This document shows, in pieces, positions 360 through 11,949 of a DNA stretch of 64,000 nucleotides (positions within the stretch are counted from its first letter, which is position 1; each line of letters starts with the position of its first letter). The notes under the pieces were generated by a model, which had not been told where the DNA came from, made no database searches, and was given only the letters and a program-made list of their open reading frames with translations. The DNA is from Aeromicrobium sp. Sec7.5 (GTDB lineage: Bacteria; Actinomycetota; Actinomycetes; Propionibacteriales; Nocardioidaceae): contig NZ_JBAJIJ010000001.1 in the NCBI RefSeq assembly GCF_036867135.1, forward strand, positions 2,108,001 through 2,172,000, written 5' to 3'. The position numbers were made by a program, and so were the translations under genes.

Positions 360-911
360 TCAGCTGGTCGTCAGGCGACGCACGAAGTCCTCGACGTCCT
401 CGAGTGGCGCCGTGCTGGTGGTCACCAGGGTCGTCACCTCGGGCGTCTCCTGCACCAACGTGACGGACTTGCCCGGACCGTCGAAGCGCTGCCACACGAC
501 GCCGTCGATGTCGAGCGTGCCCGCCTCCTCGGCGCCCTCGGCGTGGGTCTGGACGAGGTCGTCGACCGACTCCTTCTCCTGCTCCAGCCCGATGTACCGG
601 TCCTCGTCGGTCAGCACGCCCAGGTGCCACGCCTGGGTGCCGGTCGGGGCGAACCTCACGCCGTTGACGCGCCAGTCGTCGGGCAGGTTGGCCGGGGCGA
701 GCAGCCCGTAGGTCGCGACGTCGCGGGCGCTCTCGGCCGTGGCGGCGTACGGCACGCTGTCGCCGATCGGGTCCTCGGGGGTGTCGGTCTGCAGCAGCCC
801 GAACACCCAGATGCCCAGCACGATGATCGAGAGCACGACGACGCTGCGGACGACGTCGCCCATCGACGGGTTGCCCCGTGACCGCTTCGGTGCCGGCTGA
901 CGCTCGCTCAT
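360..911 (-). CDS. DUF4245 membrane-anchored protein
   Basis: This 183-residue protein has a basic N-terminus, one membrane segment at about residues 22-40 (VRSVVVLSIIVLGIWVFGL) and an extracytoplasmic domain with a YGLLAPANLPDDWRVNGVRF stretch typical of DUF4245. The family is common in actinobacteria and often lies beside xseB, as here (convergent, 1-nt gap). No enzymatic function is known. It is probably a one-span protein with an outside domain. Confidence 0.8.
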   Translation of the reverse strand: MSERQPAPKRSRGNPSMGDVVRSVVVLSIIVLGIWVFGLLQTDTPEDPIGDSVPYAATAESARDVATYGLLAPANLPDDWRVNGVRFAPTGTQAWHLGVLTDEDRYIGLEQEKESVDDLVQTHAEGAEEAGTLDIDGVVWQRFDGPGKSVTLVQETPEVTTLVTTSTAPLEDVEDFVRRLTTS

Positions 912-921
912 GCCGTCACGC

Positions 922-2031
922 TCAGTCGGTCTGGCCGCTGCGACGCCAGCGGATGCCGGCCTCGATGAAGTCGTCGATCTCGCCGTCGAGCACGGCCTGC
1001 GTGTTGCCGCTCTCGTGCTCGGTGCGCAGGTCCTTGACCAGCTGGTACGGGTTCAGCACGTAGTTGCGCATCTGGTCGCCCCACGAGGCATTGGCGTCGC
1101 CGCGCAGCTCGTCGAGGTGAGCCCGCTCCTCCGCCTTCTTCAGGGCGAGGAGCTTGGCCTTCAGGATGACCATGGCGCTGGCCTTGTTCTGCAGCTGGCT
1201 CTTCTCGTTCTGGCAGCTCACCACGGTGCCCGTGGGCAGGTGGGTCAGGCGCACGGCCGAGTCGGTCGTGTTGACGCTCTGGCCGCCGGGCCCGCTCGAG
1301 CGGTAGACGTCGATGCGCACCTCCTCCTCGGGGAGGTCGATCTCGTCGGTCTGCTCCAGCACCGGCACGACCTCGACCGCGGCGAACGACGTCTGTCGGC
1401 GGCCCTGGTTGTCGAACGGCGAGATGCGCACGAGGCGGTGCGTGCCCGACTCGACCGAGAGCGTGCCGTAGGCGTACGGGGCGCGGACCGCGAACGTGGA
1501 CGACTTGATGCCAGCGCCCTCGGCCCACGACGTGTCGTAGACCTCGACGGGGTACTTGTGGCGCTCGGCCCAGCGCGTGTACATGCGCTGCAGCATCTCG
1601 GTGAAGTCGGTGGCGTCGTCGCCGCCGGCGCCGGAGCGGATCGTGACGATCGCCTCTCGCTCGTCGTACTCGCCCGAGAGGAGCGTGCGGACCTCGAGGC
1701 TCTCGACCGCCGTCTGCAGGCGGCGGATCTCGTTCTCGGCCTCCGTCAGGGAGTCGGCGTCGCCCTCCTCGCGGGAGAGCTCCACCAGCACCTCGGCATC
1801 GTCGAGGCGCTGACGCAGGGACTCGACCCGCTCGACCTCGGCCTGGAGCACCGACAACCGGCCGGTCACCCGCTGCGCGTTGGCCTGGTCGTCCCAGAGG
1901 TCGGGGGCGCCGACCTGCTCCTGGAGCTCGTCCATCTCCATCCGGAGCTTGGGCAGGTCGAGGACCTTCTCGATCGACGTCATCGTCTGATCGAGTTCCT
2001 TGATGAGCTCGGAGAAATCAACGGCAGCCAC
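922..2031 (-). CDS. prfB: Peptide chain release factor 2
   Basis: RF2 recognises UGA and UAA stop codons and triggers peptide release. The 369-residue protein shows the SPF tripeptide anticodon at 204-206, which marks RF2 rather than RF1, and the catalytic GGQ at 249-251 within [17 protein letters not shown]. The reading frame is continuous, so the programmed +1 frameshift of E. coli prfB is absent, as is usual in actinobacteria. It ends about 10 nt from the DUF4245 start on the same strand and may be co-transcribed with it. Confidence 0.97.
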
Positions 2032-7981: not shown

Positions 7982-8960
7982 GAGCCACCTCCGAGCAGGG
8001 AGTCGAGGTCAAGCCCGGCGCGCTCGAAGGCGTCGCGGCGGGCGGGCCGCCCCACGGCCCGAACGAGGTCGCCGGAGCGTCGTTCGAAGACCGGTTCGCT
8101 CTCGACGCTGCCGGACTCGACCCGGCCCGTGACGGCGACGACCTCCTGCACGGCGCGACGGCCGGAGGAGTCCATCGCGGTGTGGACCACGAGATCGACC
8201 GTGCTGGCGACGGTCGGCACCACGAACCCCGCACCGATGTTCTCACCGGCGAGCAGCGGGAGGGTGCTGAGCTTCATCAGCGCCTGGCGCGCGGAGTTCG
8301 CATGGATCGATGCCAGTCCCGGCAGCCCGGAGTTCAGCGCCAGGAGGAGGTCGAGGCACTCCGCCGCCCGCACCTCGCCGATGATGAGGCGACTCGGGCG
8401 CATGCGCAGCGACTCCTTCACCAGCGCGCGGAGGTCGATCTCGCCGTTGCCCTCGAGCCCGGGTGGACGACACTGGAGCTGGACCCAGTCGGGGTGGGTG
8501 ATCTGCAGCTCGTAGACCTCCTCGGCCGAGACGACACGTTCGTGTCCCGGGATCGCCCCAGCAAGGCAGTTGAGCAGCGTGGTCTTGCCGGCCTGGGTGG
8601 CGCCGGAGACGACGATGTTGAGGCCAGCCACCACGCTGCCGCGCAGGAACCGGGCCGTCGCGGTGTCGAGGGTGCCGAGGTCGACGAGTGCCTCGAGGTC
8701 GTGGGCCCGGGCGACGAACTTGCGAATGTTGACCGCGGTGAAGCCATTCGAGATCCCGTCGAGCACGACGTGGAGGCGATGTCCGCCGGGGAGGTTGGCA
8801 TCGACGAAGGGCTGGCTCACGTCGAGGCGCCGGCCCGTGGTCGACAGCATCCGCTCGACCAGCTCGCGCACCCCGTCGGCCGTGAGGATGATGCTCGTCA
8901 GCTCGTGCCGACCGCCGCGGGCCACGAACACCCGGTCCGGCGCGTTGATCCAGATCTCCT
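7969..8960 (-). pseudogene. tadA: tadA/cpaF, 3' fragment cut off by IS110 insertion
   Basis: This part encodes the C-terminal 330 residues of the Flp pilus ATPase. It begins EIWINAPDRVFVARGG, which is the middle of the conserved CpaF N-domain motif, and carries Walker A GATQAGKTT and a Walker B region (RPSRLIIGEVR). Directly upstream in frame is a TAG belonging to the inserted element. The rest of the gene lies at 11597-11840. Joining the two parts at the shared CT gives 412 codons with no frame loss, reading DDPSVEEIWINAPDR. The ATPase is therefore inactive unless the element leaves. Confidence 0.92.
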
Positions 8961-8969
8961 AGGGCGTTG

Positions 8970-9440
8970 CTACCGGCTCCGTTCACGCCACGTCGGAGGT
9001 CGTCCACCCTCGCGCCAGATCACGAGTCGGAGATCAGCGAGAAGCGCAGTAGTGGCCGCAGCGTGCGCTGCAACAGCATCGCGCGCGATGTGCTTCTTGT
9101 GAAGGAGAGCATCGGTGATCGTCACGAGCGTCCGGTTGGCGCGTGACATCGCTTCGTCGATGCGTTGGGCTTCCTCGAGCGTGAGCCACTTCTGCCCGGG
9201 GAAGTCTGGAGCAGGTTCGGCCACGTAGGGCTCGTCCGCGTTAAGCCGACCCTCGCGGCGTCGCGCCCGCATTCGACCCGTCCAACGTTTGCGCATGGCT
9301 CTGTGGAAGATGCATCGCGGTGAACGACCTTCGGCCGGGCGACTGGTCGCGTCGGGGAACAGCGAGCAATCAACACACTCGCGGTAGTCCTGCTCATCGT
9401 TACTCACGCTGTTTACGCCTGCAGGCAGATCGCTCAGCAC
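8970..9440 (-). CDS. Passenger protein of the IS110 element, zinc-knuckle-like, unknown
   Basis: An open frame of up to 156 codons from GTG 9440, with GTG 9407 as an alternative start. It ends only 9 nt from the left border of the element. Visible features are a CxxC at ECVDC and a later CxxH at RCIFHR, likely one zinc site, followed by a very basic stretch (RKRWTGRMRARRREGR) and a helical C-terminal half. I do not recognise the family. Its lower GC content than the surroundings and its antisense orientation to the transposase suggest cargo. It could instead be a chance frame. Confidence 0.5.
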   Translation of the reverse strand: MLSDLPAGVNSVSNDEQDYRECVDCSLFPDATSRPAEGRSPRCIFHRAMRKRWTGRMRARRREGRLNADEPYVAEPAPDFPGQKWLTLEEAQRIDEAMSRANRTLVTITDALLHKKHIARDAVAAHAAATTALLADLRLVIWREGGRPPTWRERSR

Positions 9441-9589
9441 TCGCTGTAATCACGGCACGATCCTATGTATCCCTACCGTCAACCGTCTGCCGTGTGCACT
9501 GCATTAACGCTGATTAACGCAGTTTTGGTCCCTGCGGCGTGTCGACTGGACTCGTCCGGCGGTCGGACGGGAACGTCCGGTCATGTCGA

Positions 9590-9930
9590 GCCGCCACCAC
9601 AAACACGTCTACGGACTGCGCGGGCTTCGAGCCCTTCTGAGAGACGGACGGTTTGTGGTGGTCGCTGGGTATGGCGAACGACCCCGTGAGATGCCGCACC
9701 TTGAGTGCTCTGCCCTAGACCGATGCGCCAACCCAACAGGCTCGGAACCCACAGGAAGGAGAGGTCCTTGACCTCACCGGCCAGCACTGCGTTAGCAGTC
9801 CCGAGCCGCCGTCACGAAACCGCTTCAGATCTCCCGCACCGTGAGTGCTTCGTTGAGAGCGCGGGTCGTGTCGGTCGCTGGAGGCTGCTGAAACGGCCAT
9901 GTGAGATGTCGTGCCCTGAGCACTGATTGA
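9590..9930 (+). ncRNA. Candidate bridge RNA of the IS110 element
   Basis: This gene-free stretch upstream of the transposase holds guide-like segments. Target loop: 9826-9834 (CAGATCTCC) equals the left tadA flank, and 9870-9877 (GTCGGTCG) is the reverse complement of the right flank 11597-11604. They flank a hairpin region. Donor loop: 9686-9693 (GTGAGATG) equals the right end of the element, and 9712-9718 (GCCCTAG) is the reverse complement of 8959-8965 at the left end. A third module at 9901-9925 repeats the right-end sequence over 10 nt. IS110 recombinases use such RNAs. The transcript limits are not known. Confidence 0.75.
9594..9661 (+). other. Large RNA-type stem-loop in IS110 left region
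   Basis: Positions 9594-9604 (CCACCACAAAC) pair perfectly with 9651-9661. Inside lie a second helix, CGTCT 9606-9610 with AGACG 9642-9646, and a GGGCT/AGCCC hairpin at 9622-9634. A separate hairpin with stem CGGACG/CGTCCG lies just upstream near 9564-9579. Nested helices of this kind suggest a folded transcript, perhaps the 5' domain of the element's guide RNA. Confidence 0.6.
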
Positions 9931-10011
9931 CGTAGGTCGCCGCCAGTGGCCTCCACCCTTCCACCGGCGACTCCACACCCGCTGAACCACCCACAGAACG
10001 GAGATACACCC

Positions 10012-11337
10012 ATGCCCGCATACGTCGGAATCGACTGGAGTGAGTCCTACCAAGACTGGGCTGCTGTCGACCACGAAGGCACCAAGATCGAGGGAGGACG
10101 GTTCCTCGAGACACCGGACGGCTTCGATGACTTCGAGGCCCGCATCAGGGCTCTCGCTGACCCCGAGACCGGCACCCTGCCCACGATCGCGATCGAGACC
10201 GAGAAGGGCCTGACGGTCGCCAACCTGCGTCGTCGGGGCTACGCCGTCTACGCGATCAACCCGCTCAAGGTCTCGAACTACCGCACGCGCAAGGCAACGA
10301 GCCGCGGCAAGAGCGACAAGGGCGACGCGATGATGATCGCCAACATCGTCCGGACAGACCCCGACGACCACCGTGCGCTGCCGAACATCACGCCGAGCGG
10401 TCACGCGATGACCGTGCTGTCCCGCGCCCATCAGGACGAGATCTGGCGTGTCACGTCGATCGCGGCCGAGATGCGCAGCGTGCTGCGTACCTACTACCCG
10501 ACCGCCCTCGAGGTCTATCCCACCAAGACCCTCGTCAGCGACGAAGCGCGCACCGTCCTCCGGGCCCTGCCCACTCCGACGGCTGCGGCCGCGAAGCGCG
10601 CCGCCGGGTGGAAAACTCTGCTCCGCGACTCAGGTCGGGTGAAGTACATCGACCGAGACGCCGCCCGCCGCATCGAGTCATTCCGGGCGCCGACCCTGCG
10701 GGTCGACCCCGTCGAGGAGGCCGCGCTCGGCGCCCGACTGCAGGCCCTCATCACCACGCTCGACGGCGCCGTCACCGCGCAGCGCACCATCGAGGAGCAG
10801 ATGATGAACGCCGTCCGCCAGCACCACTACTACCCGCTGCTGCAGCCGATCGTCGGCATCGGGGACACCATCGCCGCCCGACTCCTCGGCGAGATCGGCG
10901 ACGACCCCTACCGGTTCGACAACAAGAACTCGATCCGTTCCTACGCGGGGACGGCGCCCATCACTCGAGCGTCCGGGAAGTCCATGGTCGTCAACCGGCG
11001 CCGCGTGAAGAACAACAGGCTCAACAACGCGATGTACATGTGGGCCTTCAGCGCCGCCCGCTTCTCTCCCGGCGCAAAGATGCACTACGGCGTTCGCCGG
11101 GAGCAGGGCGAGCGCCACGCGGCCGCTCTGCGCAACCTCGGGAACCGACTCATCGGCTGCCTCTGGCACTGCATGACCACCGGCGAGGTCTGGGACGAGC
11201 ACCGCGTCTGGGGCCACCGCTACACCCTGCCGCCCGCCATGCCCCTCACCGTCGACCTCGACAGCGAGGAGATGCGTCTCGAGACCACTCTCGAGGGCTT
11301 CGACGCGGCCATGGAGGCCGCCGCCGAGACCGCGTGA
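10012..11337 (+). CDS. IS110-family transposase (DEDD/serine recombinase)
   Basis: A 441-residue recombinase. The N-terminal RuvC-like DEDD domain shows VGIDWS (Asp about 7), AIETEKG (Glu) and KSDKGDAMMIA (Asp pair). The C-terminal Transposase_20 domain shows IVGIGDTIAARLLGEIGD and SYAGTAPITRASGKS, which holds the catalytic serine. All key residues look intact, so the element may be active. The ATG at 10012 follows GGAG and lies close to the guide-RNA region, as in the IS110 subgroup where the RNA precedes the gene. Confidence 0.93.
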   Translation: MPAYVGIDWSESYQDWAAVDHEGTKIEGGRFLETPDGFDDFEARIRALADPETGTLPTIAIETEKGLTVANLRRRGYAVYAINPLKVSNYRTRKATSRGKSDKGDAMMIANIVRTDPDDHRALPNITPSGHAMTVLSRAHQDEIWRVTSIAAEMRSVLRTYYPTALEVYPTKTLVSDEARTVLRALPTPTAAAAKRAAGWKTLLRDSGRVKYIDRDAARRIESFRAPTLRVDPVEEAALGARLQALITTLDGAVTAQRTIEEQMMNAVRQHHYYPLLQPIVGIGDTIAARLLGEIGDDPYRFDNKNSIRSYAGTAPITRASGKSMVVNRRRVKNNRLNNAMYMWAFSAARFSPGAKMHYGVRREQGERHAAALRNLGNRLIGCLWHCMTTGEVWDEHRVWGHRYTLPPAMPLTVDLDSEEMRLETTLEGFDAAMEAAAETA

Positions 11338-11352
11338 CCCGACACGACGCGA

Positions 11353-11386
11353 AGGACCCCAGCACGAGCAATCGTGCTGGGGTCCT
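11353..11386 (+). terminator. Transposase terminator, 14-bp perfect stem
   Basis: AGGACCCCAGCACG at 11353-11366 pairs exactly with 11373-11386 across a 6-nt loop. It lies 15 nt after the transposase stop. The remaining 210 nt to the element's right border contain no gene that I can support. Confidence 0.8.
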
Positions 11387-11567
11387 GTTCGCTGAACCAC
11401 CACTGCCGCAGCGTCCAATGAGTACTCGAGGCACAAGCCCTCGGTGTCTCCACAACACCTCGGGAACCTCCTCGCGGAGGCGGACACTTCAAGCGGTCAA
11501 GCGGAGTCGGAATGAGTCTAGTCCCAGCCCTTGCCGGTCACAATCAACACGGACGGTCAGCCTGCCG

Positions 11568-11840
11568 TCAGAGTGCGGTGGCTACGTGAGATGTCTCGAC
11601 CGACGGGTCATCGACCAACGGCTGCAGCACCCCGAGCCCGGCGACGTCGGCGACCAGTCGAGCGACCTCGACGTCGGTCTCGTCGAGCGTGCGCACCGCC
11701 CCGGTCAGGCTGGCCCGCTCGTGATCGGCCACGACGTCCTGGGCCGCCTGCCGCACCGCGGCCGGATCGGCACGCGGGTCGATCCGGCGCTCCCGCACCA
11801 GCTCACGGACGCGCGTCGTCAAGGTCGTTGCAGGATCCAC
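11568..11840 (-). pseudogene. tadA: tadA/cpaF, 5' fragment fused to element sequence
   Basis: The first 81 codons of the pilus ATPase start at GTG 11840, preceded by GAGGAAAGGGA. They encode the CpaF N-domain (DPATTLTTRVRELVRERR, then VADVAGLGVLQPLVDDPSVE). After position 11597 the frame continues into the IS110 element for nine codons (TSHVATAL) and stops at 11568. The catalytic domain is on the far side of the insertion, at 7969-8960. No ssd/cpaE-like gene lies upstream, so the start of the Tad operon seems to be here. Confidence 0.9.
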
Positions 11841-11949
11841 CCCAGATCCCTTTCCTCGGAAAGTCGTGCCGACGAGACTGGCCCGACCCCCGCAAACCCT
11901 GCAACCACCCGAGACGGGGGCTGTGGACAACGAGGTCAGGGTAGGTCAC

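Follow-up and report, generated by a model that had tools for sequence, protein, structure and literature searches.

IS621, the bridge RNA element described by Durrant 2024 (PMC11208160) and Hiraizumi 2024 (PMC11208158), combines a DEDD recombinase and a CT core with a noncoding RNA in its long left end, the internal loops of which carry left and right guides for target and donor, and a short subterminal repeat lies around the donor. One target-binding loop (TBL) is followed by one donor-binding loop (DBL), each synapse draws its two loops from different RNA molecules, and recombination in vitro also proceeds when TBL and DBL are supplied as separate RNAs (PMC11208158). RNA-guided DEDD recombinases are also found in the IS1111/seekRNA branch of the wider family (PMC11187229), the members of which, however, encode the RNA downstream of the gene and have long subterminal repeats. 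Here, we describe an IS110-group element within a cpaF/tadA-like ATPase gene of Aeromicrobium sp. Sec7.5, located in a stretch of 64,000 nucleotides (contig NZ_JBAJIJ010000001.1, positions 2,108,001 to 2,172,000), in the following called the window. The element shares the named features with IS621 but has two TBLs and two DBLs, and the loops matching the present insertion stand donor-first. Its nearest annotated relatives are IS117-like elements of Streptomyces and Rhodococcus (~41-44% amino acid identity), which belong to the same recombinase clade and possess the same TBL and DBL scaffolds and a similar left donor of the GTGAGATG type; in contrast, they have a single DBL that is always beside the gene, a right donor guide (RDG) xxATTAG, a left end CTAATxx and mostly 2-5 TBL units. 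With a probability of about three in four, we take the window element to possess a tandemly duplicated bridge RNA, the present insertion having probably drawn its donor loop from the first unit (DBL-A) and its target loop from the second (TBL-B).

The ends of the element were set from the cpaF junction and the empty sites of congeners, independently of the guides. When the flanks are joined with one CT core, the frame of the ATPase is open again (DDPSVE/EIWINAP), and in the congeners cpaF is uninterrupted with the empty site TCCAGATCTC-CT-CGA; the target site of the window element is CAGATCTC-CT-CGACC. Compared to the congener sites, the core is CT and no target duplication has occurred, as is typical for the IS110 group. 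Membership in this group is similarly indicated by the DEDD_Tnp_IS110 and Transposase_20 domains of the recombinase and by the layout, with a left end of ~1050 nt, a right end of ~260 nt and guides (9686-9857) upstream of the gene. The subterminal inverted repeat GGTGGCTAC...GTTGCTACC (7/9) flanks GTGAGATGT-CT-AGGGC, and one extra base, T at 11594, separates GTGAGATG (11586-11593) from the core at 11595-11596.

An earlier sequence-only reading had proposed positions 9686-9718 as the donor-binding loop of a bridge RNA, since its two arms appeared to correspond to the right end and, as reverse complement, to the left end with the core. Both matches are exact, and structure prediction places the small hairpin that had been noted between the guides (GCAC-CUUGA-GUGC, 9696-9708) within an enclosing outer stem. 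The leader (9541-10011, 471 nt) was scanned for the best donor and target guide pairs with no position preset. The best donor pair was 9686/9712, fitting both ends at 15/15, a score reached by 0/3000 random CT-centred sites of the window; when the ends of 20 related elements were swapped into the scan, the maximum was 13. Among the loops of the left end, only DBL-A fits both ends, as expected of the donor loop of a bridge RNA. In pairwise comparison, its similarity to the DBLs of relatives was equalled by 0/200 shuffles.

The leader is built as a tandem repeat, in which D1, D6, D10 and D13 recur in register at spacings of 213-242 nt, and two complete bridge-RNA units, A (9584-9735) and B (9800-9950), each comprise a target loop and then a donor loop. 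The units are 59% identical (115 matches vs at most 103 in 40 shuffles), and both retain the TBL stem and the DBL hairpin; the consensus calculated from 19 related leaders preserves a target-loop stem of nine pairs and the donor-loop hairpin, with double changes in 11/17 pairs. A search of Rfam gave no match in the window. The left target guide (LTG) of TBL-B is identical to the left flank at 8/8 positions, which in the structural register was achieved by 0/20000 random sites, while the whole TBL-B match in the register of the target-loop family was equalled by 3/20000, as would be expected of the target loop of a bridge RNA. The free scan of the leader also placed the best left guide at 9826, at modest significance (24/3000); for the target match we relied on the register-bound test. 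TBL-A, with guides about GTCTACGGACT/TTCTGAG, does not match the present target (8.5/15), and its predicted target is GTCTACGGA-CT-CAGAA. Thus, the donor-before-target order pointed out in the sequence-only reading holds for the matching loops (9686-9718 before 9826-9857) but not within either unit, where the target loop comes first; the order appears swapped because the matching loops are DBL-A and TBL-B of a duplicated unit. Copy A ends with a ribosome site and a start codon which resemble the signals preceding the recombinase gene, and at the homologous position a related element from Knoellia (see below) carries AAGGAAGGA...ATG. The TTG start at this site opens a frame of ~52 codons through TBL-B and DBL-B (window 9768-9926), and a similar frame exists in Knoellia, where it ends at 1629 of locus L072; translation of this frame might possibly interplay with the RNA.

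The second member of the double-unit lineage, which so far comprises these two elements, was identified in Knoellia subterranea. Its recombinase (locus L072, 52% amino acid identity) was found by an alignment query, whereas single-sequence protein scans of genome and viral contigs gave no match. The two leaders align across both units (429 nt, 65% identity, E=2e-9). No ends were found within 1.8 kb, the element being longer than that; the right end, CGTGAACTGT-CT, was located via the left donor guide of unit B, and the left end, CTACGTC, via the preceding target guide of unit B, AAGACCTC. The joined flanks yield an open cpaF frame that aligns without gaps over 317 residues to that of the window, and the ends are situated in a 7-bp inverted repeat free of mismatches, TAGGTAC...GTACCTA, spaced 9+CT+5 as in the window element. 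The donor scan of this leader picks the loop homologous to 9686-9718, TTGAACTG/GACGTAG, at 14/15 (RDG 7/7, left donor guide (LDG) 7/8), and the target scan picks TBL-B (LTG AAGACCTC 8/8, right guide 5.5/7). The left ends of the two elements differ at two positions, and the right guides of unit A differ at the same two with complementarity kept. Covariation had been suggested as a check of the donor loop and constancy of the loop beside differing ends as its refutation; in Knoellia, the loop and both ends have changed together, supporting the assignment. Also the split, with the donor in unit A and the target in unit B, is the same, likewise inside cpaF. Both elements interrupt cpaF at GAGGAG (Glu-Glu) codons, which are different ones in the two cases.

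The tandem units, the guide matches, the covariation of guides and ends in the second lineage member and the recurrence of the split can be read from the sequences. Based on these, the leader would be transcribed as one or two RNAs, and the recombinase would load DBL-A and TBL-B together, one dimer on DBL-A and another on TBL-B being sufficient and loop order irrelevant. DBL-A and TBL-B should be workable in any order because the IS621 loops act from different RNA molecules. TBL-A might represent a second target address, currently unmatched, and DBL-B might assist through its exact left guide. Several points weigh against this explanation. Its support is sequence comparison, and the element is present as a single copy in this genome and is thus only putatively mobile. 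A profile of the relatives' DBLs does not report DBL-A, and hence its homology rests on the pairwise comparison and the repeat. The right target guide is imperfect, at 5.5/7 in both elements. Finally, of the two left donor guides, LDG-B is the better fit to the right end (10 nt vs 8 nt for LDG-A in the window, 8/8 vs 7/8 in Knoellia), and therefore donor recognition could be shared by both donor loops.

Three other explanations have to be considered. The locus might encode a single bridge RNA of swapped order, donor loop and then target loop, a duplication having produced a circular permutation of which TBL-A and DBL-B are the decaying remains. This would agree with the order of the matching loops in both lineage members, but the supposed leftovers do not look decayed: TBL-A has a fold z of -2.9 in the window and -3.1 in Knoellia, DBL-B of Knoellia one of -2.65, and the left guide of DBL-B is still an exact fit to the right end in each element. 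We therefore regard this possibility as unlikely. It might also be speculated that the locus is a hybrid frozen after one event, a fusion to which one element contributed the left end with unit A and another element unit B, the gene and the right end. The presence of a separate ribosome site and start codon at the end of copy A would be in line with such a fusion, as would the nested and tandem left ends among relatives (L029, L042, L068); since, however, the arrangement and an accessory gene are common to Knoellia at 52% protein identity, it appears old and inherited, which makes a single frozen event rather improbable. This scenario concerns origin and is compatible with the function proposed above. 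We consider it improbable that only unit B functions as bridge RNA, in the usual order, and that unit A is left over from an older left end, inactive and with a merely historical RDG-A match, because RDG-B misfits the left end in both elements (5/7 in the window, ~4/7 in Knoellia) and RDG-A fits at 7/7 in both despite left ends differing at two positions, even though unit B occupies the position of the relatives' single donor loop and DBL-B is the better profile match with a left guide matching the right end. A variant, with TBL-A as an unused upstream loop and unit B as the last loop pair of the relatives, was rejected on the grounds that the Knoellia leader shows two full units. We thus favor the duplicated bridge RNA with its donor and target loops in different units. 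The RDG-B of the window, GACGTAG, is the same as the Knoellia-type guide, which suggests that GACGTAG represents the older specificity.

Features of the element and its surroundings in the window (positions from the first nucleotide of the window).
Feature	Position	Strand	Remarks
IS110-group element	8959-11596	+	both CT cores included (8959-8960, 11595-11596); host gene cpaF/tadA-like ATPase
cpaF parts	8958 downwards and 11597-11930	-	interrupted by the element
Left end (right donor)	8959-8965	+	CTAGGGC; exact reverse complement of 9712-9718
Inner subterminal repeat, left side	8966-8974	+	GTTGCTACC
Accessory open reading frame, 156 amino acids	8970-9440	-	CxDC...SPRCxFH motif; Knoellia homolog at the same place
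TBL-A stem (unit A)	9584-9668	+	fold z -2.89; TBL profile match
DBL-A (unit A)	9669-9735	+	centroid fold: outer stem and hairpin; resembles relatives' DBLs
LDG of DBL-A	9686-9693	+	GTGAGATG, identical to right end 11586-11593
RDG of DBL-A	9712-9718	+	GCCCTAG, complements CTAGGGC; covaries in Knoellia (GACGTAG/CTACGTC)
Remnant ribosome site and start codon, end of copy A	9747-9772	+	TTG 9768-9770; repeat D13 with 9989-10004
TBL-B (unit B)	9800-9883	+	fold; consensus stem with compensatory changes
LTG of TBL-B	9826-9833	+	CAGATCTC, identical to target left flank 8951-8958, 8/8
Right target guide of TBL-B	9851-9857	+	CGTTGAG, pairs with CTCGAC of right flank, one G-U
DBL-B (unit B)	9880-9950	+	profile match, 22 bits
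LDG of DBL-B	9901-9910	+	GTGAGATGTC, matches right end
RDG of DBL-B	9929-9935	+	GACGTAG, left end fit 5/7
IS110 recombinase, 441 amino acids	10012-11337	+	PF01548 E=1.8e-24, PF02371 E=7.7e-17
Terminator-like hairpin 3' of recombinase gene	11353-11386	+	15-nt perfect inverted repeat
Right end	11577-11596	+	subterminal repeat GGTGGCTAC, left donor GTGAGATGT, core CT

In plasmids and most genomes, the closest recombinases share ~43% identity with that of the window, and a DNA search of plasmids with the leader yielded short Streptomyces matches only. In the 20 relatives with both ends defined, the donor guides reside in the last loop, ~70-130 nt before the gene, fitting at 15/15 in 18 of them, and the right guide changes along with the left end. 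The window element is the exception, its left end fitting DBL-A and not DBL-B. Covariation of guides with DNA, as expected of a bridge RNA, was thus seen for the donor in the Knoellia element and the 20 relatives, and for the target in the Streptomyces pair described below.

A target-loop profile recognized 66 units in 38 leaders. Among a further 93 leaders, 67 have 2-5 target-loop units and 87 exactly one donor loop; these counts were made by profile and are approximate, some near-identical loci being included. Two donor loops were found in two leaders, L072 and L160, which represent the same Knoellia locus. Most IS117-like elements (L041-L043, L056-L069, L072-L151) have 2-5 target-loop-like units arrayed in tandem upstream of one donor loop. 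Within the arrays, the guide columns are variable and the scaffold is constant. In 25 of 46 elements with automatically assigned ends, a guide pair fits the flanks of its own element with a score of at least 14/15 (control mean ~11.4), and in each case this pair is located upstream of the last unit. The last unit itself (~-170 to -215 from the gene) is not the target-matching one in multi-unit relatives, and its guides look partly conserved. In Streptomyces acidiscabies, the same 1837-bp element (99.95% identity; L085 and L086, left ends at -588 from the gene) occupies two sites, one of which fits array unit 2 (15/15) and the other unit 3 (14.5/15). Since identical copies at two sites match different units, the array units probably represent alternative addresses. 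In Arthrobacter and Paenarthrobacter plasmids (L064 and L066), two successive units have nearly equal guides (CGGCGCTC/GACGCAG or GACGAAG), and both fit the present target. Two further loci seem to have received insertions of their own kind, L068 upstream, where a target loop contains a left-end duplication, and L042 downstream, where the donor loop forms the junction to a partial copy in inverted orientation.

The accessory gene upstream on the minus strand occurs in both double-unit elements (BLASTP E=2e-12; Knoellia copy at 550-1044 (-) of L072); no Pfam family was assigned to it, and searches of plasmids and near relatives gave no match. The Knoellia element spans ~14 kb (414075-428093 of its contig, G915 C1; L168, L072 and L167). 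Its cargo includes type III restriction-modification and Abi genes, with products identified as a type III methyltransferase (PADLOC E=3e-221), an AbiEi antitoxin, an AbiJ-like protein and a ResIII helicase-like protein. As an IstA-like gene is also found among the cargo genes, part of the cargo may have arrived via later insertions.

On balance, we think it probable that this IS110 clade has multiplied its bridge RNA modules, with arrays of 2-5 target loops as alternative addresses and with one sublineage in which the whole bridge RNA is duplicated, taking the donor from the first unit and the target from the second; its members can be transposons of a large size (14 kb) that carry defence genes and insert in cpaF. 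A literature search, which excluded preprints and covered few subscription papers, yielded no account of bridge RNAs that are duplicated or arranged in arrays. The usual description of a bridge RNA is one target loop and one donor loop, whereas here the modules are uncoupled and multiplied, lending sequence-level support to the conclusion, drawn from structures, that target and donor loops are contributed by different RNA molecules. This arrangement suggests a route of address change in which target loops duplicate and diverge, a single donor loop remaining coupled to the ends. The Streptomyces element, using several addresses at different sites, amounts to a natural multiplexed system, and components for programmable recombination could readily be taken from multi-address elements.
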